Shown in pieces: positions 5,649 through 29,123 of a DNA stretch of 43,329 bases. How positions within the stretch are numbered: the stretch's first letter is position 1; every line of letters starts with the position of its first letter. Location: contig NZ_BCRK01000030.1 in assembly GCF_001552555.1 (NCBI RefSeq), forward strand, positions 1-43,329. The letters run 5' to 3'. This DNA is from Nocardiopsis trehalosi NBRC 14201. Its GTDB lineage: Bacteria; Actinomycetota; Actinomycetes; Streptosporangiales; Streptosporangiaceae. The translations under genes were made by a program, and so were the position numbers. The notes beneath the pieces are model-generated. The model was given only the letters and a program-made list of their open reading frames with translations, ran no database searches and had not been told where the DNA came from.

Positions 5649-5692
5649 GCCGCCGGGCCGCGCCACGTGCCGCGACCACCGGCGGGCGGGGT

Positions 5693-7641: not shown

Positions 7642-7705
7642 GGCGGGCGGTCCTCTCCGCGGGTGGGTGCGCCCGGCGGCGGGCCGGCGCTCGGATGGCG
7701 CGGCC

Positions 7706-7741: not shown

Positions 7742-7764
7742 ATATTTCGGTTGCATGCTCTTGG

Positions 7765-7770
7765 TAGGAT
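7765..7770 (+). promoter_or_regulatory. -10 box of the MarR gene, leaderless start
   Basis: TAGGAT is followed by 7 bases and then ATG 7778, so the predicted transcription start coincides with the start codon. No good -35 is visible. This decides the start codon in favour of 7778 over the ATG at 7769, which overlaps the -10. Confidence 0.55.
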
Positions 7771-7777
7771 GGCCGGC

Positions 7778-8203: not shown

Positions 8204-8207
8204 GGCG

Positions 8208-8223
8208 GCCGCCACCCGGCGGC
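8208..8223. terminator. Short hairpin between convergent genes
   Basis: GCCGCC-ACCC-GGCGGC lies 5 bases after the MarR stop and 20 bases before the stop of the convergent PPOX gene. It could serve both directions. The stem is only 6 bp. Confidence 0.4.
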
Positions 8224-8243
8224 GCGGACCGCCCGCGGCGGGC

Positions 8244-8756: not shown

Positions 8757-8808
8757 GGTGTCCTCCGGATCGGTGGTGCGGATGGCGGGTGGCGCGGATC
8801 GACTGCGG

Positions 8809-10254
8809 TCAGGAGCGGGGGGCGCGCGGCGCCGTCGGAAGGGTCAGGGCGACGGCGATCGCGGCGGTGATGAGCACGGCCCCGGCGCCGAACGCCAGCG
8901 TGTAGCCCTCGGCCAGCGCCGCGGCGCGCTCGGCGCCGGCGGCGAGCAGGGTTTCGGTGCGCGTCGCCGCCAGGGTGGTCAGCGCGGCGGCGCCGAGCGC
9001 GCTGCCGACCTGCTGGGTGGTGGTGAAGACGCCGGACGCGGTGCCGGCGTCGTCGGGACCGGCGCCGGACATCGCGAGCCCGGTCAGGGCGGGCAGGGCC
9101 AGGCCGAACCCGGCGGACAGCGGCAGCAGCGGGAGCACCCCGGTGGCGAAGTCGGCGTCGGCGGGGAGCCGGGCGAGCAGGGTCAGCAGCACCGCGAGCA
9201 GGACCAGTCCGGTCAGCAGCACCGCGCGCTCCCCGAACCGGCCGATGAGCCGCGCGGAGAGGCCGAGGGAGGTGGCGCCGATGGCGAGCGCGGCGGGCAG
9301 CATGGCCAGCCCGGAGCCGCCCGCCCCGTAGCCCAGGACGTTCTGCAGGTACAGGGCGAGCACGATCTGGAAGGCGTACAGCGCGGCCACCATCAGCAGC
9401 TGGACGGCGTTGGCGCCCGCCGCGGCGCGGGAGCGCAGGACGCGCGGCGGCACCAGCGGGGTGCGGGCGGTGGCCTGGCGGACGCCGAACCCGGTGAGCA
9501 GGACGGCGCCGCCCGCTCCGGCGGCGAGGGTCGGCGCGCCGGTCCAGCCGTGCTCGGCGACGCCCACGACGGCGAGGATGGCGAGCACCAGGCCGCCGGT
9601 GGCCAGCGCCGCGCCGAGCAGGTCGGCGCCGCCGGACAGGCCCGGCCCCCGGTCGCGCGGCAGGGAGGGCAGGGCGAGGGCGAGCACCAGTAGGCCGATC
9701 GGCAGGTTGATCAGGAAGATCCAGTGCCAGGACAGGGCGTCGGTGAGGACGCCGCCGGCGACCTGGCCGATGGACGCCCCGGCGGCGCCGGTGAAGCCGA
9801 GGACGGCGAGCGCCGTGGCGCGTTCCCGGGGGGCGGTGAACAGGGTGACGAGGATGCCGAGCCCCACGGCCGCCGACATCGCGGCGCCGACCCCCTGGAG
9901 GAAGCGGGCGGCGATGAGGACGGCGGCGCTTCCGGCCGCCCCGGCCAGGAGGGAGGCGGCGGTGAAGACGGCCAGCCCGGCGAGGAAGAGGCGGGTGCGG
10001 CCGAGCAGGTCGCCGAGGCGCCCGGCGAGCAGCAGCAGGCTGCCGAAGGCGATCAGGTAGGCGTTGACCACCCAGCTGGTCCCGGCCGGGGTGAAGCCGA
10101 GGTCGTGCTGGACGGCGGGCAGGGCCACGGTCACGATGCTGCCGTCGAGGATCAGCATGAGCGAGGCCGAGGCCACCGCGACGAGGGCGGTCCAGCGCGA
10201 GCGCAGCGGGGACGGCGGGGCGCTGGGGCGCACGGGGGCGGAGGGGGTCGTCAT
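8809..10254 (-). CDS. MFS drug:H+ antiporter, DHA2 (EmrB/QacA) family
   Basis: A 481-residue membrane transporter with about 14 hydrophobic segments. Motif A is GRLGDLLGRTRLF after TM2, and the DHA2-typical TM1 is LMLILDGSIVTVALP. Motif C appears as GASIGQVAGGVLTD in TM5. GGGAGA precedes the ATG. It lies 75 bp downstream of a MarR gene on the same strand and upstream of a PPOX gene. A MarR-controlled efflux pump is the natural reading. Confidence 0.93.
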   Translation of the reverse strand: MTTPSAPVRPSAPPSPLRSRWTALVAVASASLMLILDGSIVTVALPAVQHDLGFTPAGTSWVVNAYLIAFGSLLLLAGRLGDLLGRTRLFLAGLAVFTAASLLAGAAGSAAVLIAARFLQGVGAAMSAAVGLGILVTLFTAPRERATALAVLGFTGAAGASIGQVAGGVLTDALSWHWIFLINLPIGLLVLALALPSLPRDRGPGLSGGADLLGAALATGGLVLAILAVVGVAEHGWTGAPTLAAGAGGAVLLTGFGVRQATARTPLVPPRVLRSRAAAGANAVQLLMVAALYAFQIVLALYLQNVLGYGAGGSGLAMLPAALAIGATSLGLSARLIGRFGERAVLLTGLVLLAVLLTLLARLPADADFATGVLPLLPLSAGFGLALPALTGLAMSGAGPDDAGTASGVFTTTQQVGSALGAAALTTLAATRTETLLAAGAERAAALAEGYTLAFGAGAVLITAAIAVALTLPTAPRAPRS

Positions 10255-10329
10255 TGGGGTTCTCCCGATCGAGTGGGCGACGGGAAGAACCGTAGCATAT
10301 TGATTTGTAGTAGACGATATTTTTCGGAA
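10255..10329 (-). promoter_or_regulatory. AT-rich control region of the DHA2 transporter
   Basis: A 30-bp AT-rich island in GC-rich DNA. It contains a -10-like TATGCT (10299-10294 on the minus strand), with CGTAG at 10291-10295 and GTAGTAGACG at 10307-10316 as possible half-sites. No convincing -35 or perfect palindrome is present. The base composition and position between MarR and transporter genes suggest the MarR binding region. Confidence 0.45.
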
Positions 10330-10812
10330 CTACTTTTCCCGCTGGCGCGCCCGCCGCACCGGCGCGTCCGCCGGGGTCGCGAGATGGCCCTCCGCCAGGC
10401 CGGCCAGGGCGCGCACCAGCACGGCGCGATCGCCCTCGGGCACCGCCTCCAGCACCTCGCGGTGGACCCGGTCGACGATCTCCCGGCTGCGCTCGGCCGT
10501 CCGCGCCCCGGCCTCGGTCACCGCGATGACGCGGGCCCGCCGGTCGGTGGAGGAGGGGCGGCGCTCGGCCAGGCCGGCCTTCTCCAGGGCGTCGACGGTG
10601 ACCACCATCGTGGTCTTGTCCATGTCGCCGATCTCGGCGAGCTGGGCCTGGGTGCGCTCCTCCTCCACGGCGTGGACGAGGACGCAGTGCATCCGCGCGG
10701 TCAGGTCGATCTCGGCCAGGGCCGCGGCCATGCGGGTGCGCAGCACGTGGCCGGTGTGATCGAGGAGGTAGGAGAGGTCGGGGACGTCCGTGGAGGAGGC
10801 CATGGTGGTCAT
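10330..10812 (-). CDS. MarR-family transcriptional regulator
   Basis: A 160-residue MarR protein. The HTH is TQAQLAEIGDMDKTTMVVTV and the wing is ERRPSSTDRRARVIAVTEAG. The C-terminus is basic (VRRARQREK). ATG 10812 follows GGTGGGGGG. The sequence TAGGGT ends 6 bases upstream, so the mRNA may alternatively be leaderless. ATG 10803 is an internal alternative. It is followed by the DHA2 transporter on the same strand. Confidence 0.9.
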   Translation of the reverse strand: MTTMASSTDVPDLSYLLDHTGHVLRTRMAAALAEIDLTARMHCVLVHAVEEERTQAQLAEIGDMDKTTMVVTVDALEKAGLAERRPSSTDRRARVIAVTEAGARTAERSREIVDRVHREVLEAVPEGDRAVLVRALAGLAEGHLATPADAPVRRARQREK

Positions 10813-10821
10813 CCCCCCACC

Positions 10822-10953
10822 CTAGCAACCCGTTCCGTGGCGGATCTTCTGGCGCAGCACCATCTCCGCCGCCCGGCGTCCCGGCAGGCCGCCCGGGAGG
10901 GCGGCCCGCGGTTCGAGGCGGCGCACCGGGTCCCGGTCAGGGCCTCCCGGCAT
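10822..10953 (-). CDS. Possible 43-residue small protein, or gene remnant
   Basis: An open frame from ATG 10953 to TAG 10822. The end reads RRAAEMVLRQKIRHGTGC, which looks like a natural amphipathic protein C-terminus rather than the Arg/Pro/Ala filler of shadow frames. No ribosome binding site precedes the ATG. It may be the tail of a decayed gene. I do not recognise it, and the call is weak. Confidence 0.2.
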   Translation of the reverse strand: MPGGPDRDPVRRLEPRAALPGGLPGRRAAEMVLRQKIRHGTGC

Positions 10954-10983
10954 CGGGTGCCGAAGCGGGGCGGGGCCGGCGGC

Positions 10984-12963
10984 TCAGCGGCGGTTGATGA
11001 CGCGGGCGGCCCCGGCGGCGATCGTGGTGGCCAGCACCCACCCCGCGGCGACGAGCGCGTAGGACAGCCACTGGTAGGCGCCGGCCGGGTTGAACGCGCG
11101 CTCCTGGCCGAGGTCGGCGATCGGGACCATCAGGTCGAGCGTGTAGACGACCGCGTTGAAGTGCGGCGCCTCATCGGCCTTCAGCGGCTCCGGGGGGTGG
11201 GCCCCGTAGACGGCGCTCCCCGCCGCCAGCAGCAGCGCCAGCCAGACGAACGCCCGCCACGGCTGGTACCCGTACCCGGTCGTGACGTCCTGCATTCGGC
11301 CCCAGAGCCGCAGCAGAGGGGGCTCACCGGCGATCCGCCGGCGCTCCTTCGCGCGCAGCACCACCCGCGCGTCGGTGTGCAGGCCCAGCGCCGTGTAGTT
11401 GGCGGCGAGCTGCTCGTAGGGCTGCGGGTCGAAGCCGTCGCCGCCGGTCAGCCGGGCCAGCCGCCGCCGGGCGGGCAGCGTGGGCTCCAGCGCCTGGTAG
11501 GTGAGGCCGCCGGCCTCCAGCGTCGCCTCGTGCCGGTCCGGATCGTCGCGCAGCACGCCGATCAGCGCGTGCGCGAGCACGATCCGACCGCGGATCGGCG
11601 CGGCGGGCGCCAGCGTCAGCTCGTCGGCCGTCAGCCGCTGGGCGTCCAGGGCGACGCCGTCGTCCACCGACAGCCGCAGCCCCGTGAGGTCGACGTGCCG
11701 GCCGACGCGCATGCCGTACAGCCGGACCTCGCCCTCGGCCACGAGGCCGTGGGCGATGAGGTCGGAGCCGATCTCGGTACCGGAGGCGCGCAGCGCCGGG
11801 CCGCCCGCGCCGTGCAGCCGGGCGTCGCTCACCACCAACCGGACGCCGATCCGGGTCGCGCGGATCATGACCTCGCCCTCCGCCCGCAGCCCGCGCAGCG
11901 AGACGAGGCCGAGGTCGGCGTGGTCGGCGGCCAGGGAGCGGCGGGTGCCGGGGGCGGACAGCTCGGCGCCGTCCAGGGTGACCTGCCCGGTGACCCGGGT
12001 GTTGCGCATGCTCACCTCGCCCGCCACCACCCGCAGGCCGGCCGCGTCGACCAGGTCGCACGCCGCCGAGTCCAGGTTCAGGGCGACGCCGCCGGGATGG
12101 TGCAGCCGGGCGCCGTCCAGGGTGAGGTTGCCGCGGATCTGCGCGCCGACGAGCCGGACCCCGCCCTCGGCGCGGAACCCGCGCCCGCAGAACAGCCCGC
12201 CGCCCACGGTCGCGCCGCCCGCGTTGAGCGCGTCGCGCCCCCGCGCGTCCAGCCGCGCGCCCGCGAACGACGCGATGCCGACGCGCGCGTCGCGCAGCAG
12301 CACCGCACCGGTGGCCTCGATGTCGACGGCGTGCAGCCGACCGTCGATCGCGGCGTCGTCGCACCGCAGGGCGGCCTTCCCGTCGGGGTTGCGGAACCGT
12401 CCGCCGACCAGGTCGAGGTCGGCGCCGACGCGGCCGCCGCGCAGGGTGAACTCGCCGTCGACCGTGATGCCGTCGGCGTTGAGCGTGCCCTGCACCTCGA
12501 TGTTGCGCGCGTCGACCCCCCGCACGGTGACGCCGGTCAGCCGGACCTCGCTCTCCAGGCGGGCGTGGTCCAGCCGCAGCCGGCCGCCGATCGACGACCC
12601 CTCCAGGGAGAGCAGGCCGCTCGCCCGGAGCCGGGAGGCCTTGACCGCCGGGAGCCGGCTGTGCGTGATGCGCAGGGTGCGCAGGCTCGCCTCGGCGAGG
12701 CTGACCGCCTCCTCGAAGACGCAGCCGCCGCAGTCCAGCATGGCCTCGAAGGCCGCGCCGTCCAGGTCGAGCCGCCCGGTGATCCGGGCGCCGCGGACGC
12801 GGACGGCCGGGAAGGAGCCGGGCTCGGGGTCGACGGCGCCGAGCAGCAGCGCCGCGATGACCCCGGCGCGCACGGCCTCGCCGTTGTCGAAGGTGATGAT
12901 CTCGCCGCTGGGGTGGGCGTCCCACAGCCGACGCTCGGCGTCGGTCAGGTCATGTCGTCGCAT
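10984..12963 (-). CDS. Large beta-helix (pentapeptide-like) membrane protein
   Basis: A 659-residue protein. Residues about 45-530 consist of repeats of the type xLxGAxIxGxLxLxGA (ARITGRLDLDGAAF, AQIRGNLTLDGARL), which predict a right-handed quadrilateral or parallel beta-helix. The C-terminal 130 residues carry two hydrophobic segments (WLALLLAAGSAVYG and SYALVAAGWVLATTIAAGA) and end INRR. Relatives in Streptomyces are usually called membrane-associated oxidoreductase, but I see no redox cofactor motif here. ATG 12963 follows GAAGGGTG. A scaffold, or a two-TM channel-like C-terminus, is possible. The function is unknown. Confidence 0.8.
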   Translation of the reverse strand: MRRHDLTDAERRLWDAHPSGEIITFDNGEAVRAGVIAALLLGAVDPEPGSFPAVRVRGARITGRLDLDGAAFEAMLDCGGCVFEEAVSLAEASLRTLRITHSRLPAVKASRLRASGLLSLEGSSIGGRLRLDHARLESEVRLTGVTVRGVDARNIEVQGTLNADGITVDGEFTLRGGRVGADLDLVGGRFRNPDGKAALRCDDAAIDGRLHAVDIEATGAVLLRDARVGIASFAGARLDARGRDALNAGGATVGGGLFCGRGFRAEGGVRLVGAQIRGNLTLDGARLHHPGGVALNLDSAACDLVDAAGLRVVAGEVSMRNTRVTGQVTLDGAELSAPGTRRSLAADHADLGLVSLRGLRAEGEVMIRATRIGVRLVVSDARLHGAGGPALRASGTEIGSDLIAHGLVAEGEVRLYGMRVGRHVDLTGLRLSVDDGVALDAQRLTADELTLAPAAPIRGRIVLAHALIGVLRDDPDRHEATLEAGGLTYQALEPTLPARRRLARLTGGDGFDPQPYEQLAANYTALGLHTDARVVLRAKERRRIAGEPPLLRLWGRMQDVTTGYGYQPWRAFVWLALLLAAGSAVYGAHPPEPLKADEAPHFNAVVYTLDLMVPIADLGQERAFNPAGAYQWLSYALVAAGWVLATTIAAGAARVINRR

Positions 12964-16401: not shown

Positions 16402-17160
16402 TCAGCCCCCGGGGACGCGGTGCCGCCAGCGCACCGGGTCGTCGGGCACCGCCCGCGCCCCCGGCGGGGCCGCCGCCAGGGGGCCGCGGCCGCCGCAGTC
16501 CAGGACCAGCATCTCGTCGCCGCCGGGCAGGAACGCGTAGTCCACCCGCTCCAGCCGCGAGTCCACACCCGACTGCGCCAGGTGCGCGCGCAACCCGTCC
16601 AGGCCCGCGTACCGCCGCCCCCCGGTGTGCGGCACCAGCGGGTACAGCCGCACCTCGCGGCGGGCCACCCGCACCAGCTCCACCAGCGCGTCGCGGTGCA
16701 CCCGCTCCCCGAACCGGTCGCCGTAGCAGAACAGCAGGTGCGAGCTGAGCACCAGGTCGAAGGCGCCGTCGCGGAACGGCAGGTGCGGCAGGGCGCCCGC
16801 GACGTAGCGGTGCGGGCGGCGCGCCAGGTCGGCGGTGAAGGCGCGCGCCGCCTCGGCGCGCGAGCGCGTGTACCGGTCGGGGTCGCCGAACCAGCTCCAC
16901 ACGAACCGCTCCGGGTGCGCCGCCACCTCGGCGTGCTTGTGCGCGATCTCGCGCAGCGCCAACCCGCCCAGCCGGTGCCCCTCGCGCCCGTACTCGGGGT
17001 CGACCGCCACGGCATCGGTGCCGCGCGCCCCGGCCCCGGCGACGAAGCCCGCCGCCCCGCCCGGGCAGTCCAGCACGCGCAGCGCCAGGTCGTCGTCGGT
17101 GAGGGCGAACATCGCCCGGTACTCCGCGAAGGAGCGGGCACTGACCAGCACCGCCCTCAC
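16402..17160 (-). CDS. Class I SAM-dependent methyltransferase, NRPS-operon tailoring enzyme
   Basis: A 252-residue Rossmann-type methyltransferase. Motif I is LRVLDCPGGAAGFVAGA (about 27-43), followed by AVDPEYG with the acidic ribose ligand. The region AGALPHLPFRDGAFDLVLSSHLLF is the post-II segment. GTG 17160 overlaps the SDR stop in a GTGA. It is the last gene before the hairpin, so it is taken as the operon's methylating enzyme (O- or N-methylation, not predictable). Similar stand-alone proteins exist elsewhere in actinomycetes, so recruitment from a general role is possible. Confidence 0.85.
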   Translation of the reverse strand: MRAVLVSARSFAEYRAMFALTDDDLALRVLDCPGGAAGFVAGAGARGTDAVAVDPEYGREGHRLGGLALREIAHKHAEVAAHPERFVWSWFGDPDRYTRSRAEAARAFTADLARRPHRYVAGALPHLPFRDGAFDLVLSSHLLFCYGDRFGERVHRDALVELVRVARREVRLYPLVPHTGGRRYAGLDGLRAHLAQSGVDSRLERVDYAFLPGGDEMLVLDCGGRGPLAAAPPGARAVPDDPVRWRHRVPGG

Positions 17161-17930
17161 CCCCGCCCGACGTAGGGCATGGTCGTCGGCAGCACCGTGA
17201 GGTACTGGACGTTGGCGTCGGTGGGCATCGACGCCATCAGCAGCAGCGCCTCGGTGAACCGCTCCACCGGGATGGTCGCCTCCACCGCCATGGTGCCGTC
17301 GGCCTGCATCGCGGGCGGCTGCGGGCCGCCGTCGTGCGGGGCGACGTTGCCCACGTCGATCTGCCCGACGGCGATCCCGTGCGCCCGCCCGTCCAGCGCC
17401 AGGGCGCGGGTCAGCCCCAGCACGGCGTGCTTGGCGGTGGTGTAGGCGACGGCGTGCGGCCGGGGCGCGTGCGCCGACGGCGCCCCGTTGTTGATGATGC
17501 GCCCGCCGCGCGGGTCCTGCGCGCACATGGCGCGGAACGCCTCCCGCGCGCACAGGAACGTGCCGGTGACCGTGGTGTCCATGATGCGCCGCCAGTCCTC
17601 CAGGTCGACCTCTGCCACCGGGCGGCGCGGCACCGCCGCGCCCGCGTTGTTGAACAGCAGGTCCACCCGGCCGAACCGGTCGCGCACGGCGGCGAACAGC
17701 GCCGCCACCGCATCGGGGTCGCGGATGTCGGTGGGCACGCACACCGCCCGGCCGCCGCCCGCCCCCGCCAGGGCGGCGGTCTCGGCCAGCGCCTCGGCGC
17801 GCCGCCCGGCCAGGGCCACCCGCCACCCGGCGCCGAGCAGGGCGAGCGCGCTCGCCCGCCCCAGCCCGCCGCCCGCGCCCGTCACGACCGCGGTGCGCGG
17901 GGCCGCGCCCCCGTCGGCGCCCCCGCTCAC
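17157..17930 (-). CDS. Short-chain dehydrogenase/reductase, NRPS-operon tailoring enzyme
   Basis: A 257-residue classical SDR. The nucleotide motif is TGAGGGLG (17-24), followed by FNNAG (93-97). The catalytic Tyr163 and Lys167 lie in AYTTAKHA, with Ser152 in NNGAPSAHA. AGRRAE after beta-2 suggests NADP(H). GTG 17930 overlaps the TauD-type gene stop, and its own stop overlaps the methyltransferase start, so all three are coupled. It could reduce the aldehyde released by the NRPS reductase domain, or oxidise a hydroxyl set by the oxygenases. Confidence 0.9.
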   Translation of the reverse strand: MSGGADGGAAPRTAVVTGAGGGLGRASALALLGAGWRVALAGRRAEALAETAALAGAGGGRAVCVPTDIRDPDAVAALFAAVRDRFGRVDLLFNNAGAAVPRRPVAEVDLEDWRRIMDTTVTGTFLCAREAFRAMCAQDPRGGRIINNGAPSAHAPRPHAVAYTTAKHAVLGLTRALALDGRAHGIAVGQIDVGNVAPHDGGPQPPAMQADGTMAVEATIPVERFTEALLLMASMPTDANVQYLTVLPTTMPYVGRG

Positions 17931-18790
17931 ACCGCCTCCGACGACATCCACAGCCGCAGCATCCGCCGGGACCGGTCCCCGGGCGCGTCGGTGTAGGGCG
18001 AGCGGCCGTGCAGCACCCGGCTGTTGCGGATGACCAGCAGCTCACCCGCCTCCAACCGCAGCCCGAACGCGATCTCGGGCCGGTACAGCACCTCGTCCAG
18101 CACGGCCAGCGCGTCCCACTGGGCGGGGGTCAGCGGCCGCCCGCCCGGCGCCTCGGCCGAGGCCCGCACCGTGCGCGTCTGGTAGTAGCAGCCCACCGTC
18201 CCGTCGTCCTGGGTGAACAGGATCGGCGAGACGACGAGCTGCGGCCCGGCGCGGCCGGTGCGGTCGAACCGCCACTCCCGGCGCAGCTCCGCCAGCGCGT
18301 CGGGGCGCTCGCGCCCGATGATGTCGTGCACCCGGCGGGCGCTGGCCAGCCGGGTCTGGCCGCCGCCGTCGGCCGAGGGCCGCAGGCACAGCAGCACCAG
18401 CAGGTCGCAGGTGTCGCAGTGGAACCCCAGCTCGGTGGCGCCGTCGCCGTCGCGGTCGCGCAGGACCTGGGTCAGGTCGCCCGCCGCGTTCTGCGGCACC
18501 ACCCCGCCGAACTCCCGCAGCAGGAACGACAGGTTCGCGGCGACCTCGTCCTCGGGGGCGGTGGTGTCCATGAGGTTGCGCACGTGGGCGAAGCCCACCG
18601 CGCGCAGCGCGTCCAGGACCGACGCGCGCACCCGCGCCCGCACCCCGTCGCCCGGCCCCCACCGCCGGGCGGCGGTGTCGGCCCACAGCAGCCCCCGCTC
18701 CTCGTCGCTGAGCGCCGACGACCACCGGCCGCGCCGCTCCTCCAGGTAGGCGCTGTCCCAGCCGACGTCGACCACCGTGTCCTCGGACAT
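17927..18790 (-). CDS. TauD/clavaminate-synthase-like Fe(II)/2-oxoglutarate dioxygenase
   Basis: A 287-residue enzyme. The iron triad is His124 and Asp126 in LGFHCDTCDL and His261 in RVLHGRSPY. Arg276 or Arg279 in RSRRMLRLW would bind 2-oxoglutarate. LVIRNSRVLHGRSPYTDAPG is typical of the TauD/CAS group. GGGAAGGG precedes the ATG. It lies 67 bp after the NRPS gene, separated by a short hairpin. Related SyrP-type enzymes hydroxylate aspartate while it is held on a carrier protein, which fits an Asp-loading NRPS. That role is inference. Confidence 0.88.
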   Translation of the reverse strand: MSEDTVVDVGWDSAYLEERRGRWSSALSDEERGLLWADTAARRWGPGDGVRARVRASVLDALRAVGFAHVRNLMDTTAPEDEVAANLSFLLREFGGVVPQNAAGDLTQVLRDRDGDGATELGFHCDTCDLLVLLCLRPSADGGGQTRLASARRVHDIIGRERPDALAELRREWRFDRTGRAGPQLVVSPILFTQDDGTVGCYYQTRTVRASAEAPGGRPLTPAQWDALAVLDEVLYRPEIAFGLRLEAGELLVIRNSRVLHGRSPYTDAPGDRSRRMLRLWMSSEAV

Positions 18791-18834
18791 GAGCGGGCCC
18801 TTCCCTTCCTCGACACTTCACCTGTACCACCGGA

Positions 18835-18854
18835 GGTCCGCGCGGGCGCGGACC
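18835..18854 (-). promoter_or_regulatory. Intercistronic hairpin between NRPS and dioxygenase genes
   Basis: GGTCCGCG (18835-18842) and CGCGGACC (18847-18854) pair perfectly around CGGG, 3 bases after the NRPS stop. It could lower transcription into the tailoring genes or stabilise the upstream mRNA. Confidence 0.45.
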
Positions 18855-18857
18855 GCC

Positions 18858-21800
18858 TCACCCGGTCCGGTCGGCGGCCACGGGCGCCGGCAGGAACCCG
18901 GCCCGCCCCGCCCACGCCAGCGCCGCGCCCCACCACAGCGGGGTCGGCGCGGCGAAGCGCACCCCGAGCCGGTCCAGCGCGGCCGCGCTGGCCGCGCAGT
19001 CGACGTCGACGTTGCTCTCGCCGACGCGCGCCCACGCCGCCGCCAGCCCGATCTCGGCGGGATGCGCCCGCTCGGCGCGCTCCAGCGCCGCCGCGTAGGC
19101 GTCGTCGCCGACCAGGGCCACCGGGTACCCGGCGCCGGCCATCCACCCCACCAGGACGTCGTGCGGCACCCGGTGCGGCGTCTCCACGTGGTAGGCGCCC
19201 GGCGCGGCGCCGGGGTGGACGGCGAGCGCGGCGATCCCCGCGGCGACCGTGTCGACGTGGGAGAACGCGAACGACGCGGCGGGCCGGCGCGGCGCGGCGC
19301 CGGCCAGCACGTAGCCGCGCACCACCTGGTAGACGCGGTTGTCGGCGACGTTGCGCTGGAAGGCGCCGGTGCGGCTGTGCGCGGCGACGTGCCCGCTGCG
19401 GTGCACGTAGCAGCGGCGGCCGGCCGCCGCCCAGTCGCGCACCAGCACCTCGGCGTCGAACTTGGTCCGCTCATAGGGGGTGCGCGGCGTCTGCCCGATG
19501 TCGAGGTCGGCCTCGCTGAACCGGCGGGCCGGCCCCTCCACCCCGCCGGCCACGGCCAGCGTCGACAGGTGGTGGAACCGCACACCGGTCGTCTCGGCGT
19601 CGAGCCAGGCCAGCAGCCGCCGCACCCCCGCCGTGTTGGTGCGCGCCAGCTCCTCGGGCGCGGCCACCAGGCGCACGTCGGCGGCGGCGTGCACGACCGT
19701 GTCGACCGCGCGGGCGCGCTCGGCCCCCGCCGCCGACAGCCCCAGGCCCTCGGCGGTGATGTCGCCCGCCACCACCTCCACCCCCGGGCGGCGGCCGCCC
19801 AGCCGCCGCGCGGCCTCGGCGTCGCCGCCGCCCCGCACCAGGCAGGTGACGCGGGCGCCGCGGTCGAGCAGCGCCGCGAGCAGGTGCCCGCCGAGGTAGC
19901 CGGTGGCGCCGGTGAGCAGCACCCGCGCGGGTTCGCGGACCACGCGCACCGCGGCCCGCGCCGGCCACTCCCCGAGGTGCAGCAGGTGCCCGGAGGTGGA
20001 GACGGGCGCGCGCACGGGCACCGGCGGGGCGGCCCCGGTCGCGTCGGCGACCGCCCGGGCCACCTCCGCCAGGACGCGCGCGGCGGTGGGCTCGGCGACC
20101 CCGGGCCGCGCGTACACCAGGTCGGCGACCAGGCGCCCGCCCACAACGCGGGCGGTCAGCCGCAGCGGGTGCGCGGGGTCGCCGCCCGCGCAGCGGGCCG
20201 GCCCGGGGTGCTCGCGCGCCGGGGACCACCCCAGGTCGGGGGCGTCGGGCAGGCGGAAGGTGCCGAGGAAGTTGAACCCGGCGTCGGCCAGCGGCCCGGG
20301 GGCGTCCAGGGGCAGCTCGGGGGCGGCGGACAGCAGGCCGGCGACCGCGCGCACCCGCTCGGGCGGCGCCCCGGGCGGCCCCGCGTCGACCTCGACGCGC
20401 TTGACGGCGGTGAACCAGCCGACGGTGTCGAGGTGGGTGCCGTCGGCGGTGGGGCGCCCGTGGGTCTCGACCTCCACGCGCAGCCGGGGGCGCCCCTGGG
20501 CGCGCGCCGCCGCCGACGCGAACGCGGCGAGCAGCAGCGACTCCAGCCCCTGCCCGGCGCCGTGCCGGGCCACCAGCCGGGCGGTCGCCCCCTCGTCCAG
20601 CGCCCAGCTCAGCGCGGCCGGGTCGACCGGCGCCCACACCGGTCCGGGCGCGGCGGGCCCGGGGGGCGGCGCCGCCCGCGCGGCCCACTGGTAGAAGTCG
20701 GCGGCGGGCGGCAGGTCCGGGCTGCGGCCCGCCCGCGCCGCCCGGTAGGCGGCGGCCAGGTCGTCCAGCAGCACCCGCCAGGACAGCCCGTCCACGGCCA
20801 GGTGGTGGGCGACCAGGGCCAGCCGGTCGGCGCCGCCCCCGGTGTGGGTGAACAGGTGGACCCGCAGCAGCCGACCCGCCTCCGGGTCCAGCCCGCGCTG
20901 CAGTTCGGCGCACAGGCCCTGCACATCGGCGGCGACCCGCCCGGTGCCGCCGCCGGTGCGGGAGAACGACACCGCGTCGACCTGCTCCGCCGGCCGCGCC
21001 GGACCCACCCCGCCGGGGCCGACCGGGCGGCGCAGCGCCGCGTGCCGGCGCAGCACCGCGGTGACGGCCGCCGACAGCGCGGCCGCGTCCACGGGCACCG
21101 CGCAGCGCAGCACCACCGCCTGGTTGAAGTGCCGCCGGTCGGTGAGCGGGCGGCCGAACAGCCAGCGCTGGGCGGGCGCCGGGCGGGGCGGGGCGCCGTC
21201 CGCCGCGGCGGACGGGGGCGGCGGGGCGGACCCGGCGGCGCGGGCGGCCGCCGCCAGCCCGGCGGGGGTGGGGTGGCGGTAGAAGTCGTCGAAGGCGGCC
21301 CGGTGGCCGCGGGCGCGCAGGAACGCGGTGGTGCGCATCGCCAGGATGGAGTCGCCGCCCAGGCCGAGCACGTCGGCGTGCGCGGCCACCGACGGCAGGC
21401 CCAGCGCCTCGGCCCACAACCGGGCCAGCGCGGCCGCCAGCTCGGGGTCGGCCGCCGCGGGGCCGCCGGGGACGGCGTCGGCGTCGGCCGCGCGGGCCGC
21501 GACGGCGGCGTCGACCTCGGCGCCGAGCCGGTCGGCGTCGAGCTTGCCGTTGGGGCCGGTGGGGAACGCGGGCAGCACCAGCACCGGCTGCGGCACGGCG
21601 TATTCGGGCAGCCGGTCGGCCAGGTGCGCGCGCACCGCCTCGGGCAGCCCCGCCGCACCGCGCCCCGGCGCGGCCACCACCGCCGCCAGCAGCCGGGTGC
21701 CCGCCGGCCCGGTCCGCGCCAGCACCGCCGCCTGCGCCACCCCCGGGCATCCGTCCAGCACCCGCTCCACCTCGGCCGGGTCGACGCGGAACCCGCGCAC

Positions 21801-23030
21801 CTTCACCTGGCGGTCGGCGCGGCCCAGGAACACCAGGCCCCCGTCGGGGCGCGTCCGGCACAGGTCGCCGGTGCGGTAGACCCGCCGCCCGCCGCGCACG
21901 AGGAAGCGCCGCGCGGTCTCCTCGGGGCGGCCGAAGTAGCCGGCCGCCACCCCGCGCCCGCCGATGTGCAGGTCGCCGGGGGCGCCGGGGGGCACCTGGG
22001 CGCCGTCGCCGCCGAGCAGCAGCAGGTCCGCCGACCCGATCGGGGTGCCGATCGGCACCGCCGCCTCGTCGGCGGGCAGGTCGGCCGATGATCCGGCCAC
22101 GAAGCAGGCGGCGCCGATGGTGGCCTCGGTGGGGCCGTAGTGGTTGACCACCCGCGCGGCCACCCCGCCGTCGAGCAGCCGCGCCGCGAACGCCCGGGTC
22201 AGGACCTCGCCGCCGAGCACCAGCGTGTCCAGGGCGGGGGCGTCGCCGGGGCGGCCCTCCAGCAGCGCGGCCAGGTGCGACGGCGTCGTCTTGAGCACCG
22301 TCACCCCCGCGGCGCGCAGCGACGCCCAGAACGCCTCGGGGTCGCGGGTGCGGTTGTCGGGGACGACGTGCACGGCGCCGCAGGTGGCCGCCGCCAGCAG
22401 CCACGCCGTGTGCCCCAGGTCGGCGGCGAGCGTGGTGACGTGCGCGGTGCGCGGCGCCGCCACCGGCCCCAGGCCCAGGCGGCGGCGGAGCGCCCGCGCG
22501 TAGTGGGCGGCGTTGCCGTGGGTGACCGCGACCGCCTTGGGCTCGCCGTTGGACCCCGAGGTGAACGACAGGTAGGCGGTGGCGTGCGGCGGCGGGGAGG
22601 GCGGGCGGGGCGCGGGCGGCGCGGCCACCGCCAGCGCGTCGGGGTCGAGCACCAGGGTGGGCACCCCACCGGGGGCGCGCACCGCCGGGTCGGCGGTGAC
22701 CGCACACGCGGCCGACACCGCGGCCAGGCGGCGCGCCGTGTCGGCGGCACCCCACCCCGGGTCGACGGCGACGGCGGCCGCGCCGGAGCGCAGCACCCCG
22801 TGCAGCAGGGCGAGCAGCCGGGCGTCGCGGGGGCCGAGCAGGGCCACCCGGTCGCCGGCGCGCACCCCGGCGCGGTCCAGGCGGGCGGCGACGGCCGCCG
22901 CCACCCGTTCCAGGGTGCGGTAGTCGAACGCGCGGTCGTCGTCGGTCACGGCCGGGTGCTGGGGCCGGATCCGCGCCGCCCGGGCCAGCAGGCCGGGCAG
23001 GGCGGACAGCGGGCGCGTCGCGCGCGTCAT
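18858..23030 (-). CDS. One-module NRPS, A-PCP-E-R, predicted aspartate-activating
   Basis: A 1,390-residue synthetase. The adenylation domain (1-505) has A3 SFTSGSNGEPK (155-165), A5 NHYGPTEAT (296-304) and Lys496 in TGPNGK. The ten pocket residues read D204 L205 T208 K247 V271 G273 H297 I305 G306 K496, the classic Asp code. The PCP (530-595) carries the phosphopantetheine Ser561 in LGGDS. The next domain (615-1000) is an epimerase: PAQRWLF and HFNQAV, HHLAVDGLSW with His743, Glu855 in VETHGR, and FNFLG. The C-terminus (1030-1390) is a thioester reductase with GATGYLG, Tyr1186 and Lys1190. There is no condensation or TE domain. ATG 23030 overlaps the upstream stop (ATGA). No MbtH gene is nearby. 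Confidence 0.93.
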   Translation of the reverse strand: MTRATRPLSALPGLLARAARIRPQHPAVTDDDRAFDYRTLERVAAAVAARLDRAGVRAGDRVALLGPRDARLLALLHGVLRSGAAAVAVDPGWGAADTARRLAAVSAACAVTADPAVRAPGGVPTLVLDPDALAVAAPPAPRPPSPPPHATAYLSFTSGSNGEPKAVAVTHGNAAHYARALRRRLGLGPVAAPRTAHVTTLAADLGHTAWLLAAATCGAVHVVPDNRTRDPEAFWASLRAAGVTVLKTTPSHLAALLEGRPGDAPALDTLVLGGEVLTRAFAARLLDGGVAARVVNHYGPTEATIGAACFVAGSSADLPADEAAVPIGTPIGSADLLLLGGDGAQVPPGAPGDLHIGGRGVAAGYFGRPEETARRFLVRGGRRVYRTGDLCRTRPDGGLVFLGRADRQVKVRGFRVDPAEVERVLDGCPGVAQAAVLARTGPAGTRLLAAVVAAPGRGAAGLPEAVRAHLADRLPEYAVPQPVLVLPAFPTGPNGKLDADRLGAEVDAAVAARAADADAVPGGPAAADPELAAALARLWAEALGLPSVAAHADVLGLGGDSILAMRTTAFLRARGHRAAFDDFYRHPTPAGLAAAARAAGSAPPPPSAAADGAPPRPAPAQRWLFGRPLTDRRHFNQAVVLRCAVPVDAAALSAAVTAVLRRHAALRRPVGPGGVGPARPAEQVDAVSFSRTGGGTGRVAADVQGLCAELQRGLDPEAGRLLRVHLFTHTGGGADRLALVAHHLAVDGLSWRVLLDDLAAAYRAARAGRSPDLPPAADFYQWAARAAPPPGPAAPGPVWAPVDPAALSWALDEGATARLVARHGAGQGLESLLLAAFASAAARAQGRPRLRVEVETHGRPTADGTHLDTVGWFTAVKRVEVDAGPPGAPPERVRAVAGLLSAAPELPLDAPGPLADAGFNFLGTFRLPDAPDLGWSPAREHPGPARCAGGDPAHPLRLTARVVGGRLVADLVYARPGVAEPTAARVLAEVARAVADATGAAPPVPVRAPVSTSGHLLHLGEWPARAAVRVVREPARVLLTGATGYLGGHLLAALLDRGARVTCLVRGGGDAEAARRLGGRRPGVEVVAGDITAEGLGLSAAGAERARAVDTVVHAAADVRLVAAPEELARTNTAGVRRLLAWLDAETTGVRFHHLSTLAVAGGVEGPARRFSEADLDIGQTPRTPYERTKFDAEVLVRDWAAAGRRCYVHRSGHVAAHSRTGAFQRNVADNRVYQVVRGYVLAGAAPRRPAASFAFSHVDTVAAGIAALAVHPGAAPGAYHVETPHRVPHDVLVGWMAGAGYPVALVGDDAYAAALERAERAHPAEIGLAAAWARVGESNVDVDCAASAAALDRLGVRFAAPTPLWWGAALAWAGRAGFLPAPVAADRTG

Positions 23031-23611
23031 GCGGTGGGGCCTCCGGTGCGGGAGCGGGGGGCGGCCGCGCCGGGGGCGCGGTCCGGCGGCAGCGTGCGGG
23101 GGTCGCCCGCCACGTAGGCGTCGAGCCCGCCGGCGGGCAGCCGGCCGGCGAGTTCCCAGGCGAGCATGCGGTGCAGGCCGTCGAGGTGGGTGAGGGTGTC
23201 GCGGACGCGCAGCCCCGCGTAGTCGACGTGCTCCACGCACCCGACGCTGAGGTAGACGGGGGTGAGCGGGGCGCGGCCCATGAGGTCGAGCTTGGCCGAG
23301 CACACCGGGTTGGCCGCCGCGACGGCGGCGCCGCCGGTGCGCAGCCGCTCGGCGGCCTGGCCGACGGTCAGCCCCGACGGCGGGACCAGCTCGTAGCCGC
23401 CGCCCTCGCTGAGGTGCCAGGGCAGCATCACGGCCAGCACCTCGGCGCGCCGCAGCCGGACCCGGAACCAGGTCCCCAGCAGCTCCTCGGCGCGGTCCAG
23501 GTTGTCCGCGCCGTCGCGGTTGGTGTTGGCGGGGTGGTCGCGCTCGGCCGGGTGGTCGCGCAGGTAGGCGCGGCGCACCTCGGAGAAGGCCACCGGTCCG
23601 GCGATGTGCAT
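23027..23611 (-). CDS. Unknown 194-residue protein with DGLHR motif, NRPS operon
   Basis: Not confidently recognised. It may belong to a small Streptomyces DUF family (I considered DUF6309, unverified). It begins MHIAGPVAFSEVRRAYLRDH and contains VLPWHLSEGGGYELVPPSG, ANPVCSAKLDLMG and THLDGLHRMLAWELAG (about 145-160). The DGxHRxxA pattern resembles the nucleotide-binding motif of the ParB/sulfiredoxin fold, which also includes the free-serine kinase SbnI. There are no signal peptide or TM segments. The Pro/Arg-rich tail is probably disordered. It lies 9 bp after the PhyH gene and overlaps the NRPS start, so it is a dedicated operon member. Confidence 0.8.
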   Translation of the reverse strand: MHIAGPVAFSEVRRAYLRDHPAERDHPANTNRDGADNLDRAEELLGTWFRVRLRRAEVLAVMLPWHLSEGGGYELVPPSGLTVGQAAERLRTGGAAVAAANPVCSAKLDLMGRAPLTPVYLSVGCVEHVDYAGLRVRDTLTHLDGLHRMLAWELAGRLPAGGLDAYVAGDPRTLPPDRAPGAAAPRSRTGGPTA

Positions 23612-23620
23612 GCGGTCCCC

Positions 23621-24430
23621 CTACGCCGTGGCGGCGTACTCGGTGAAGTGCCGCTCGGCGAACAGCTCCGGCCAGCGGCCGCCGCCGAGGTCGAGCTCGC
23701 GCGCACGGGCGAGCATGTGCCGCCAGTAGGGTTTCACGGGCCGCCACCGGGCGCCCGTCTGGCAGTACGAGGCGTCGACGAAGTACCGCGGCCGCCCCGG
23801 CCGGCCGGGGGTGGGGCGGCGGGCGTGGAACAGCGCCGAGTTGATCAGCACGGTCGACCCGGGCGGCAGCCGGTCGATGACGGCCTCGCCGGGGATCTCG
23901 GCGGTGCCCAGGTGGGCGCGCGCGGTCTTGCCGGCCGCCTCCCGGTGCGACCCCGGCAGCACCACCAGGCGGCCCATCTCGGTGGTCAGCCCGCCGAGGT
24001 AGTGCAGGGCGTGCACCATGACCAGCGAGGCGTCGGCGCCCGCGTTGGGCTCGTAGTCGTGGTGCCACGGCTTGCCCGCCGACCCGGGGCCGTGCCGGTC
24101 GCTGTGCATGTGGTGGAACACGAAAGGGCAGCCCAGCAGGTCGTCCAGCAGCGTCAGCAGCGGCGGGAACGCCAGCAGTTCGCCGTGCGCCGGCAGCTCC
24201 AGCTCCAGCAGCGGCGGCGCGCCGTGGGTGTCGGGGTCGAGGCTGCTCGCGATCGAGCGCGCCCGCAGCCCGTCGTCGACCCACCGGTCCACCTCGGGTT
24301 CCAGGCGGCGCACCAGCGCCTCGGGCAGCAGGCCCGGCAGGACCAGGTAGCCCGAATCGGTGAACCGGCGCCGCGCCGCGGCGGTGCCGTCGTCCTCGTC
24401 CTCGGGGAAGGGTCGCATCTCCAGCGTCAC
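23621..24430 (-). CDS. Phytanoyl-CoA dioxygenase (PhyH)-family Fe(II)/2OG oxygenase
   Basis: A 269-residue oxygenase and first gene of the NRPS operon. It opens with FTDSGYLVLPGLLPEALV, the usual PhyH start. The iron ligands are His123 and Asp125 in PWHHDYEPN and His202 in SALFHARRP. RPRYFVDASY supplies the 2-oxoglutarate Arg. The family includes ectoine hydroxylase and many amino-acid and peptide hydroxylases or halogenases. Asp125 is present, so halogenation is unlikely. GTG 24430 is used; ATG 24418 is an alternative. It probably acts on the amino acid or the released product. Confidence 0.88.
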   Translation of the reverse strand: MTLEMRPFPEDEDDGTAAARRRFTDSGYLVLPGLLPEALVRRLEPEVDRWVDDGLRARSIASSLDPDTHGAPPLLELELPAHGELLAFPPLLTLLDDLLGCPFVFHHMHSDRHGPGSAGKPWHHDYEPNAGADASLVMVHALHYLGGLTTEMGRLVVLPGSHREAAGKTARAHLGTAEIPGEAVIDRLPPGSTVLINSALFHARRPTPGRPGRPRYFVDASYCQTGARWRPVKPYWRHMLARARELDLGGGRWPELFAERHFTEYAATA

Positions 24431-26457: not shown

Positions 26458-26928
26458 ATGACGACGACCTCCACGACCGACTCCACCACCGTCCTCACCG
26501 GCATGTACGCGGCCGAGGCCGCCTACCTGGCCGCCGGCGGGCCCGGCACCGCCTCCTTCGACCTGCTCGCCCCCTACTTCTCGCCCGACGTGGTGCTGCA
26601 CCAGGCCGACGCCCTGCCCTACGGCGGGCAGTGGCGCGGCCACGCCGGCCTGGAGCGGTTCTTCCTCGCGATGAGCCGGACCTGGGCGGAGTTCGAGATG
26701 CGCGAGCAGGAGTTCCTCGCCACCGGGGCGACCGCGGTCGTCCGCACCCGCATCAGCGCCCGCTCCCGCGCCACCGGGCGCGCGCTGGACTTCCCCCTCC
26801 TGCAGACGATCACCGTCGCCGACGGGCGCATCACCGAGGTCCACCCGTTCTACTGGGACACCGCCGCCATCGCCCGCGCCTGCGCCGCCCCGGCGGACGG
26901 GCCGGTCAGCGGGGCCGCCGGGGGGTGA
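26458..26928 (+). CDS. NTF2/SnoaL-like domain protein
   Basis: A 156-residue single-domain protein with the cone-shaped NTF2-like fold. It contains LLAPYFSPDVVLHQADALPYGG, WRGHAGLERFFLAMS, and VADGRITEVHPFYWD. This pattern is shared by SnoaL-like cyclases, steroid isomerases and many functionally unassigned family members. There is no signal peptide. Its 3' end overlaps the convergent GntR-TetR gene by 23 bp. The activity is not predictable. Confidence 0.82.
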   Translation: MTTTSTTDSTTVLTGMYAAEAAYLAAGGPGTASFDLLAPYFSPDVVLHQADALPYGGQWRGHAGLERFFLAMSRTWAEFEMREQEFLATGATAVVRTRISARSRATGRALDFPLLQTITVADGRITEVHPFYWDTAAIARACAAPADGPVSGAAGG

Positions 26929-27784
26929 CCACGGTGGTCAGCCCGTCGAGCAGGCGCTCCAGGCCGAAGGCGAACAGCGACTCCAGGTCGAGTTCGGTCC
27001 CCGGTTCGGTGACCTGCGCGATCAGCGGGCCGTCGACGGCGAGCCGGGCCGTGGTCCACTGCGCGCTGGTCATCCCCGTGTCCAGCTCGGCCCGGGCCTC
27101 GCTCTCGATGTTCACCGCCGTCCCCCGCACGTAGTTGACCATCGTCGCGTAGACGTGCAGGCGCGTCGTCGGGTCCAGGCCGAGCCCGTCGAGCGCGCGC
27201 AGCGTCCACAGCCCGTACGCCAGCTGCCCCGGCAGGGTGGCCGGGCGGGTGATGGACACCAGCCGGGGCAGCCAGGGGTGGCGCTGGTAGACCTCCCACT
27301 GCAGCCGCGCCGCGACGCGCAGGTGGGAGCGCCACCCCGGCGGCGGCTCCGGGTAGTCGATCTCGGCGAAGGCGGCGTCGGCGATCAGCTGTGTGAGCTC
27401 GCCCTTGCCCTCCAGGTGCCGGTAGAGGGCCATGGTGGCCACCTCCAGCCGGGCCGCCACCGCCCGCATGGACAGGGCGGCCAGGCCGTCGGTGTCGGCG
27501 ATCTCCATGGCCGTGCGCACGACCCGGTCGCGTTCGAGGCCCCCGGCCGACCGGGCGGGCAGTCGGCGCCGGGCGACGACGGCGCCGACCCGGGGCGCCG
27601 ACTCGATGGCGCCCGCCTGCTTGAGCGCGGCCAGCGCCTTGGTGGCCGTCGCCATGGCGACGCCCCACTCGCGCACGATGGCCCGGGTGGTGGGCACCGG
27701 GTCACCGGGTGCCAGTTCGCCGCGGGCGATGCGCCGCTCGATGTCGGCGGCGATCCTCAGGTAGGGCGGTCGGGCGTCGTTCAC
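26906..27784 (-). CDS. GntR-TetR hybrid transcriptional regulator
   Basis: A 292-residue regulator with two DNA-binding modules. Residues 1-75 are a GntR winged helix (PPYLRIAADIERRIARGELA, GDPVPTTRAIVREWGVAMAT). Residues 85-135 are a TetR HTH (RDRVVRTAMEIADTDGLAAL, SMRAVAARLEVATMALYRHL), followed by a TetR_C-type ligand domain. Such fusions are known in actinobacteria. GTG 27784 lies 19 bp after the carotenoid oxygenase stop, so the two form an operon. The protein probably binds the TGCACTAGTGCA palindrome upstream of that operon. Confidence 0.9.
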   Translation of the reverse strand: MNDARPPYLRIAADIERRIARGELAPGDPVPTTRAIVREWGVAMATATKALAALKQAGAIESAPRVGAVVARRRLPARSAGGLERDRVVRTAMEIADTDGLAALSMRAVAARLEVATMALYRHLEGKGELTQLIADAAFAEIDYPEPPPGWRSHLRVAARLQWEVYQRHPWLPRLVSITRPATLPGQLAYGLWTLRALDGLGLDPTTRLHVYATMVNYVRGTAVNIESEARAELDTGMTSAQWTTARLAVDGPLIAQVTEPGTELDLESLFAFGLERLLDGLTTVVTPRRPR

Positions 27785-27803: not shown

Positions 27804-29063
27804 TCAGTGGTCGGGCAGCCAGTTGCCGTGCAGGCCCAGCGGCACCCGGGCCGGCAGGTGCACGCGGGCGACGGGCTCGCCGGTGAAGTCCCGGGCCGCG
27901 AGGATCACCAGGTCGCCGGCGCCGCGCTCGGGGTCGTGCACGTAGCCGAGCAGGTAGCCGTCGTCCTCCTCCGCGCCCGCTGCGGCGAACACGGCCTCCC
28001 CGACGGACTGGCCCCGGCCGAACGCGTGCACCTCGGCCGTGCCGCGCTCCAGGTCGTGCTTGACCAGCGCGTTGGTGAAGGCGCCGTCGGCCGGCGCGCC
28101 TTCGGGGACGAACGGGATGCCGTACAGGTCGGTCGCGGCCGAGTAGCCGTAGCGGTGGCGGCGCGTGGCGCGCGCCTCGTTGACGCGCGGGAAGTCCTGC
28201 GGCCGGTCGTCGACGCGGCGCTGGTCGACCCCGTCCGGGCCGATCGTCCAGCGGTCCAGAACGGGGCGGACCGCGCCGGGATCGGCGGGGTCGAAGGGGC
28301 CCTCGGCGGTGACGAGGTCGACCACGACCGCGTCGCCGTCGTCGTAGGCGTTGAGGGTGTGGCTGACGTGCACCGGGTCGATCTCGCTCCAGCGCACCGC
28401 ACCGCCGACGCGCGGCATGACCCCGACCCGGGTCGGGTGCCCCGGCAGCCACCGGCACTCGAACCCGTCGAAGCCGAGCGGCGTGTCCCACAGCACCACG
28501 TGGTCCTCGGTGAGCGCGAAGTCGTGCAGGAACGGCGAGCGCGACAGCGGGATGAGGGAGGTGCGGACGACGCGGCCGTCCGGGCCGGTCACGATGTACT
28601 GCACCTCGGCGCGGCCCATCATGTAGGCGAGCGAGTGCAGTTCGCCGGTGAGCGGGTCGTGCTTGGAGTGCGCGCCCGCCGTGAAGCCCTCGGGGGTGGC
28701 GCCCAGGTCGCACGGCCCGACGGTGTCGAGCAGGTCGTCGAGTTCGGCGGGCGGCAGGCCGCCCTCGGCCAGGGCGAAGGTCCGCCGGGCGTGCCGGACC
28801 ACGTTGATCATGGGCGCGTGACCGGAGGTGCGCACGAACCGGTTGCGGTACCACTCGGCCCGGCCCTCGCGCAGCCGCACCCCGTGGACCATGCCCTGCC
28901 CCATGCCCCAGATGTGGGTGGCGGGGTCCTCCACGCCCAGGGCGTTGGGCCCGTTGCGCAGGTAGCGCCCGTTGAGTTCGGCCGGGATCCGCCCGGTGAC
29001 GGGGAGGTCGTAGGCGGTGACCTCTTCGGTGACGGGCGCGAACGCCCCTTCCAGGTATCTCAT
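27804..29063 (-). CDS. Carotenoid cleavage oxygenase (RPE65/CCD family)
   Basis: A 419-residue non-haem iron dioxygenase. The four iron-binding His appear in the expected places: His132 in AGAHSKHDP, His180 in FLHDFALTEDH, His235 in VSHTLNAYDDG, and His412 in LHGNWLPDH. The start, IPAELNGRYLRNGPNAL, is the family N-terminal motif. Bacterial members cleave carotenoids, apocarotenoids or stilbene and lignin phenols. No carotenoid biosynthesis genes are in the window. ATG 29063 is preceded by a -10 TACGTT 6 bases upstream, so the mRNA is probably leaderless. Confidence 0.93.
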   Translation of the reverse strand: MRYLEGAFAPVTEEVTAYDLPVTGRIPAELNGRYLRNGPNALGVEDPATHIWGMGQGMVHGVRLREGRAEWYRNRFVRTSGHAPMINVVRHARRTFALAEGGLPPAELDDLLDTVGPCDLGATPEGFTAGAHSKHDPLTGELHSLAYMMGRAEVQYIVTGPDGRVVRTSLIPLSRSPFLHDFALTEDHVVLWDTPLGFDGFECRWLPGHPTRVGVMPRVGGAVRWSEIDPVHVSHTLNAYDDGDAVVVDLVTAEGPFDPADPGAVRPVLDRWTIGPDGVDQRRVDDRPQDFPRVNEARATRRHRYGYSAATDLYGIPFVPEGAPADGAFTNALVKHDLERGTAEVHAFGRGQSVGEAVFAAAGAEEDDGYLLGYVHDPERGAGDLVILAARDFTGEPVARVHLPARVPLGLHGNWLPDH

Positions 29064-29069
29064 GTGGAC

Positions 29070-29075
29070 AACGTA
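29070..29075 (-). promoter_or_regulatory. -10 box of the carotenoid oxygenase operon
   Basis: TACGTT on the minus strand, 6 bases before ATG 29063, which places the transcription start at or next to the start codon. No good -35 is visible. Confidence 0.5.
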
Positions 29076-29123
29076 CGCGCGCACGCCTTCGTTCTCGGGG
29101 TCGGCGGGCGAATCTCCGCGCTG

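Follow-up and report, generated by a model that had tools for sequence, protein, structure and literature searches.

Reductases composed of an adenylation (A), a carrier and a reductase (R) domain activate a single acid, tether it and reduce it to an aldehyde; the α-aminoadipate reductase Lys2 and the carboxylic acid reductases are examples. In myxochelin biosynthesis, the synthetase MxcG, which is said to be paired with MxcL, likewise releases an aldehyde by its R domain to feed a class-III aminotransferase. Here, I analyzed a stretch of 43,329 nucleotides from Nocardiopsis trehalosi NBRC 14201 (NZ_BCRK01000030.1), which is a whole contig of the 6.38-Mb draft genome and is hereafter called the window. 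In this window, a one-module non-ribosomal peptide synthetase (NRPS) is encoded together with two Fe(II)/2-oxoglutarate (2OG) oxygenases of the PhyH and TauD families, a DUF6309 protein, a short-chain dehydrogenase (SDR), and a methyltransferase (MT). The NRPS matches the models of the above reductases (TIGR03443 and NF041592), both far below their cut-offs, and the MxcG model is also among its NCBIfam hits. With about even confidence, I propose that this orphan operon reduces aspartate and that the resulting D-aspartate aldehyde is converted to (R)-3,4-diaminobutanoate, which would then be tailored.

A one-module synthetase with a predicted aspartate code

Scanning genome contigs with the window's TauD protein gave 25 homologous loci (at most 10 kb on each side, some ended by contig limits) from genomes titled Nocardiopsis, Streptomonospora, Streptomyces, and Kitasatospora. 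Together with the window and two more clusters from a family search (L060, without the MT gene, and L061), 28 loci were compared. The NRPS alignment (A2) consists of the window and 20 of the 24 relatives with an NRPS match, leaving out L028, L031, L040, and L042.

The NRPS gene (18858..23030, minus strand like all features of the operon) encodes 1390 amino acids, and its architecture was read from Pfam, NCBIfam, and sequence motifs. Pfam found an A domain (21525..22985), a peptidyl carrier protein (PCP; 21246..21431, PP-binding 2.8e-10), a Condensation-superfamily stretch (19941..21188), and an R domain (18891..19922, NAD_binding_4 1.7e-34), with only a single Condensation-family stretch. The A domain scores 317.7 bits against TIGR01733, whose cut-off is 317.4. 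The phosphopantetheine site of the PCP reads LGGDSI in the window, and the serine of LGGDS is present in 21/21 synthetases. The best PDB matches of the Condensation-superfamily stretch are PvdL, bacitracin synthase 3, tyrocidine synthetases 1 (TycA) and 2, and gramicidin S synthase 1 (GrsA), the matched parts of which I take to be epimerisation (E) domains. Because of these matches and the motif HHLxxDGxSW, which is found in all the 21 synthetases (HHLAVDGLSW in the window), the stretch was assigned as an E domain. The R domain, which is below the NCBIfam thioester-reductase cut-off, reaches 119.6 bits in Pfam (cut-off 20.1), and its TGATGY(L/V)G...YxxxK motifs (TGATGYLG in the window) are intact in 21/21. 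Thus, the A-PCP-E-R order without a condensation domain, which the first-pass annotation had read from the DNA alone, is borne out by the Pfam domains, the PDB matches and the motifs.

The 10-residue code of the A domain is DLTKVGHIGK in the window and DLTK[VLI]GH[IV]GK in all the 21 synthetases read. The code positions were taken from alignment A2 and mapped via an alignment with LgrA; their correspondence to the GrsA numbering is assumed here. Judged by these residues, it is an aspartate code. A passage of PMC10391617 reports that DLTKVGHVGK was predicted for Asp and loads β-hydroxy-Asp in tistrellabactin, while the survey in PMC12283262 gives the same code as common to Asp and Asn domains with the majority of sequences favouring Asp. 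Since the code is combined with a reductase, the product of the module is most likely D-aspartate α-semialdehyde. The first-pass annotation had expected a D-amino aldehyde or alcohol; the substrate can now be named, and, as described below, the aldehyde is probably not the end product but an intermediate.

A seventh gene and the predicted pathway

It was found that a class-III aminotransferase gene lies between the NRPS and TauD genes in 19 of the 28 clusters. The window's cluster lacks it and has a 67-nt gap at this site (18791..18857). In 18 of the 19 clusters, the aminotransferase gene overlaps the TauD gene or is separated from it by less than 60 nt. The protein belongs to the class-III aminotransferase family, and the best solved matches of the L024 protein are the γ-aminobutyrate (GABA) aminotransferases PuuE and GabT. 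When 44 sequences were placed in a tree, all 19 from clusters grouped in a single clade (100/99), next to standalone copies from the window's family. The standalone gene adjoins a homologue of the window genome's succinate-semialdehyde dehydrogenase (SSADH)-like protein in 22 of 24 loci; against the SSADH model, this SSADH-like protein reaches 594.8 bits, below the cut-off of 646.35. The window genome has such a standalone homologue (G000:C155) that is 71% identical and lies beside the SSADH-like gene.

In a core tree built from 23 clusters (the window and 22 of the 25 loci; the incomplete L028, L031, and L035 were left out, as were L060 and L061), two separate branches lack the aminotransferase, one with the window and N. 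potens and the other with N. prasina/alba and Streptomonospora. The tree is unrooted, with a root for drawing only, and N. ansamitocini (L024) forms a long branch. Since the cluster copies form one clade and are absent on two branches, two losses of the in-cluster gene are the simplest reading of this unrooted tree. The seven-gene cluster is probably the ancestral state. L035 retains only the C-terminus of the aminotransferase. The six genes noted at first do form one conserved operon, while the cluster of this family usually has seven.

The predicted pathway would start with L-Asp (or β-hydroxy-Asp) being loaded by the A domain and epimerised by the E domain while tethered to the carrier protein. 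The R domain would then release D-aspartate α-semialdehyde, that is, (R)-3-amino-4-oxobutanoate. This compound is succinic semialdehyde with an additional 3-amino group, and is therefore a plausible substrate of a GABA-aminotransferase relative. Since the family's usual seventh gene is of this type, it is more likely that the aldehyde is passed on toward a 1,2-diamine than that the pathway ends with it. The A-domain code, the reductase, and the aminotransferase agree on a C4 scaffold, pointing to (R)-3,4-diaminobutanoate as the product of the aminotransferase. In the window's lineage, which would have lost the in-cluster gene, the chromosomal G000:C155 enzyme may substitute, or the aldehyde may meet another fate. 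PhyH and TauD would then hydroxylate, the SDR would oxidise or reduce a carbinol, and the MT would cap O or N, so that the product would usually be methylated. DUF6309 may phosphorylate a pathway metabolite as a nucleotide-dependent kinase, by analogy with SbnI and SerK.

Operon layout, tailoring enzymes and DUF6309

Open reading frame (ORF) checks together with Pfam and NCBIfam placed all six genes on the minus strand from 24418 to 16402 in the order expected from the first reading: PhyH, DUF6309 (then called the DGLHR protein), NRPS, TauD, SDR, and MT. The DUF6309 and NRPS ORFs overlap by ATGA (23030-23027), and the TauD and SDR ORFs by GTGA (17930-17927), as had also been noticed. A GTGA is also present at the SDR/MT junction; the MT start conserved in relatives (MLVSARS) corresponds to 17151, 5 nt past the SDR stop codon. 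For PhyH, the ATG at 24418 is a more likely start than the GTG at 24430, judging from the start conserved in relatives. The hairpins suspected at both borders did not hold up. The two operon flanks, which are very high in G+C, gave folding z values of 0.12 and -0.07 against dinucleotide shuffles, and border hairpins were rejected as regulatory elements because this folding is at chance level. A terminator scan gave two sites against 0.6 expected; one lies within the DUF6309 gene and the other about 300 nt past the MT stop codon. Farther away in the window, a regulator gene (26906-27784) encoding an N-terminal GntR domain followed by TetR N and C domains lies beside an RPE65-type carotenoid oxygenase gene (27804-29084).

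All six genes were found in the same order in 21 of the 25 homologous loci, at about 50-82% identity, which indicates that the gene set exceeds chance. Absence of synteny in relatives, which the first-pass annotation had named as a ground for refutation, was thus not observed. L031 is included in the 21 although it is frameshifted. The exceptions are L023 and L029 without the MT gene, L028, whose contig ends before PhyH and DUF6309, and L035, which has an internal deletion. In L042, the NRPS gene is split and the locus holds 706 N. Over the 28 loci, TauD and SDR are present in 28, PhyH and NRPS in 27, DUF6309 in 26, MT in 25, and the aminotransferase in 19. The 4-nt DUF6309/NRPS overlap is found in 17 of the 23 loci holding both genes, and the TauD/SDR overlap in 24 of 25, given the start codons chosen. 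The spacing across loci is operon-like. In the window's family, DUF6309 lies beside PhyH and NRPS genes in 9 of 297 genomes. When 396 genomes sampled evenly across the phylum were searched with the TauD protein, a single one, the window genome itself, had a match at E 1e-50. A search for plasmid-borne copies gave no match.

L031 (N. eucommiae, 4119-12360) has several frameshifts in PhyH, NRPS, SDR, and MT; the assembly is 84% complete and sequencing error is possible. In L035 (Streptomyces novaecaesareae, 9064-9921), PhyH is frameshifted around residue 207 and joined straight to the aminotransferase remnant, and DUF6309, NRPS, and most of the aminotransferase were not found at this locus. The shortened cluster is either a natural deletion or an assembly error.

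The PhyH protein (23621..24418, 265 amino acids, Pfam PhyH 3.9e-09) and the TauD protein (17927..18790, Pfam TauD 3e-25) both score above the Pfam cut-offs and have the HxD...H triad. In PhyH, H119xD121 and H198 are invariant in 17 aligned sequences (A5; the window and 16 of 24 relatives with a match), and in TauD, H124xD126 and H261 are invariant in 15 (A4; the window and 14 of 25 relatives with a match). As a rule, an HxD...H triad marks a hydroxylase rather than a halogenase. Since the triad is kept, both enzymes look like hydroxylases, not halogenases. The next protein (17157..17930, adh_short 2.1e-46) is a classical SDR, 70-82% identical in the 25 relatives. A second SDR in the window genome (G000:C166:8846-9595, L051) is 58% identical to the cluster SDR, while the next best in the genome has 36% over most of its length.

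The class-I S-adenosylmethionine-dependent MT (16402..17151, 249 amino acids, Methyltransf_11 1.2e-05; alignment A3 with the window and 19 of 23 relatives with a match) has no NCBIfam match and no close solved relative. Its model has a predicted local distance difference test (pLDDT) score of 79, and its fold match (Z 11) is to the general class-I fold only, so the methylated atom of the substrate could not be decided from the structure. The MT gene is absent beside the cluster in 3 of the 28 loci (L023, L029, and L060), and methylation is thus probably optional. The tailoring by two Fe(II)/2OG oxygenases, an SDR, and an MT that was foreseen at first agrees with the intact triads and the single conserved operon, while the MT part is not universal.

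The protein of 194 amino acids once named after its DGLHR motif (23027..23611) is a member of Pfam DUF6309 (PF19828; 258.5 bits against a gathering score of 25), and the model matches in 24 of 24 members. D144, G145, L146, H147, and R148 are invariant in 24 sequences (A1; the window and 23 of 23 relatives with a match). In a fold alignment of its AlphaFold2 model (pLDDT 85) by VIA-align, 24 of the 28 listed entries are named ParB, Noc, KorB, PadC, Spo0J, sulfiredoxin (Srx), or SbnI; the other four are two hypothetical proteins and two OTULIN entries. SerK is not among the listed matches by name, and one of them, the P. furiosus hypothetical protein 1vk1, is presumably SerK-like. The resemblance to the ParB/Srx/SbnI fold is suggestive because one superfamily fills the match list; the Z values alone, 4.7 and below and 2.8-3.1 for the SbnI entries, are not. 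The Pfam ParB model had no match at E up to 10 among the 24 members. SbnI and SerK of the ParB/Srx fold are described as serine kinases in passages of PMC12704722 and PMC5120207, the former of which links SbnI to staphyloferrin B. By analogy, DUF6309 may be a nucleotide-dependent metabolite kinase of this pathway, a hypothesis that is the first functional one for DUF6309.

DUF6309 occurs at 19 places in 16 of the 297 family genomes, and nine of these places are beside PhyH and NRPS genes. The standalone DUF6309 sequences of L057, L058, and L059 (at about 8.0-8.6 kb) have an in-frame stop codon within the match, and their neighbours look similar by eye in Nocardiopsis-like genomes. They are possibly decaying paralogues, or the match overruns the gene's own stop codon. 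A search of 5.39 million open-access papers did not find the name DUF6309.

Alternative explanations and comparison with known systems

Several observations weigh against the diaminobutanoate pathway as proposed. The A-domain code is also compatible with Asn and β-hydroxy-Asp, as the passages of PMC10391617 and PMC12283262 indicate. The R domain scores 173.7 bits against TIGR01746, below the NCBIfam thioester-reductase cut-off of 213.35. The cluster aminotransferases of L024 and L045 (357.1 and 369.3 bits) miss the GABA-aminotransferase equivalog cut-off of TIGR00700 (506.65), and the protein is therefore filed only as GABA-aminotransferase-like. L082 and L083, the standalone copies closest to the cluster clade, are also the two that lack a neighbouring dehydrogenase gene. 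The closest solved relatives of TauD, 7n7v (a predicted hydroxylase, 95 bits), FrbJ (77 bits), and TmpA (25 bits), tell little of its substrate. For DUF6309, Foldseek gave no significant match with the model (best E 1.3, a ParB), and the best Z value of VIA-align, 4.7, is a weak match. Moreover, 10 of the 19 DUF6309 places lie outside clusters with PhyH and NRPS neighbours, and DUF6309 was rejected as a cluster-specific marker.

The last point of this kind concerns the standalone aminotransferase. It was found in six of the seven other searched genomes whose cluster lacks the aminotransferase; the exception, G296 (84% complete, with a frameshifted cluster), gave no match and is not counted as support. 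Among ten searched genomes with a cluster copy, only one had a second match at E 1e-100 (48%). Across the family, 29 of 120 genomes have a match, one being a cluster copy. However, nearly all genomes of the Nocardiopsis-like genus (38 of 40) carry the standalone homologue, and the apparent complementarity is thus equally explained by kinship. Since these genomes have it regardless, its presence was rejected as proof of a replacement for the cluster copy.

Three other explanations were considered. In the first, which is unlikely, the substrate of the A domain would be β-hydroxy-Asp or Asn that PhyH or TauD makes or modifies, and the C4 unit would already bear its hydroxyl group when released; if derived from Asn, the aldehyde would close to an amino-hydroxypyrrolidinone. 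The presence of two 2OG oxygenases in the operon is in line with this idea, as are the reports of such codes for β-hydroxy-Asp (PMC10391617) and Asn (PMC12283262), while the preponderance of Asp among the sequences surveyed in the latter speaks for Asp itself. Quite unlikely is a route in which the D-Asp aldehyde is reduced, by the R domain acting twice or by the SDR, to (R)-3-amino-4-hydroxybutanoate, and the aminotransferase is a self-resistance copy because the product inhibits GABA aminotransferase or another pyridoxal-phosphate enzyme. Such a copy would be optional, as the aminotransferase is, and closely related to standalone GABA-aminotransferase-like enzymes, and MFS-exporter genes (five loci) and TetR genes (seven loci) flank relatives. 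In contrast, the aminotransferase gene is placed tightly next to TauD among the biosynthetic genes of the operon, its products form one clade and make chemical sense as a reductase partner, and no second copy reached E 1e-100 in nine searched Streptomyces and Kitasatospora genomes with a cluster copy, so that no close twin in need of a resistant partner was seen.

It is very unlikely that the aldehyde or diamine is a mere building block of a larger product whose remaining genes lie elsewhere in the genome. A synthetase without a condensation domain would fit this, and the flanking genes of the 25 loci indeed vary between clades. On the other hand, a rough gene clustering of these loci (flanks of at most 10 kb) found no non-cluster gene family common to more than nine of them, and the oxygenases, SDR, and MT would suffice for a small product. 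The conversion of D-Asp aldehyde to (R)-3,4-diaminobutanoate remains the preferred reading. A bolder extension of it is improbable as a whole: a pathway class in which a recruited GABA aminotransferase, a ParB/Srx-fold DUF6309 kinase, and 2OG oxygenases make a phosphorylated or methylated GABA- or carnitine-like antimetabolite, and in which DUF6309 would represent a novel small-molecule kinase family.

The preferred pathway yields a concrete and cheaply testable prediction, from Asp via D-Asp aldehyde to 3,4-diaminobutanoate. This compact operon occurs in several actinomycete genera, at 28 loci or more, and its product is therefore probably useful to its makers. No description of this gene set was found in the open-access literature searched, in keeping with the first-pass annotation, which knew of no such pathway. 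A search of the same literature for 3,4-diaminobutanoate found nothing useful, a weak test because commas are not searchable. Nothing of use turned up there on 7n7v or FrbJ either, and the domain order of the synthetase led to unrelated papers only. From its sequences, this looks like an NRPS-like small-molecule cluster, a small pathway that is new in combination and made of mostly familiar enzyme types.

These familiar types differ from their described counterparts. FrbJ and TmpA, the nearest named solved relatives of TauD, are 2OG hydroxylases of small molecules. Their substrates carry phosphonates, in the case of FrbJ reportedly, whereas no phosphonate gene was seen among the eight conserved neighbours scanned here. 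DUF6309 resembles SbnI and SerK in fold and differs in the missing Pfam ParB match and the low Z values to SbnI, and its kinase role would be by analogy. Compared with GabT and PuuE, the cluster aminotransferase is below the equivalog cut-off, forms its own clade, and is absent from the window's cluster. Unlike MxcG, the window's module contains an E domain and no condensation domain, and would handle a single amino acid; it scores 295.5 of 2300 bits with the MxcG model, far below the cut-off. Compared with Lys2 and the carboxylic acid reductases, the window's NRPS has an additional E domain, a predicted Asp code, and an operon with 2OG oxygenases.

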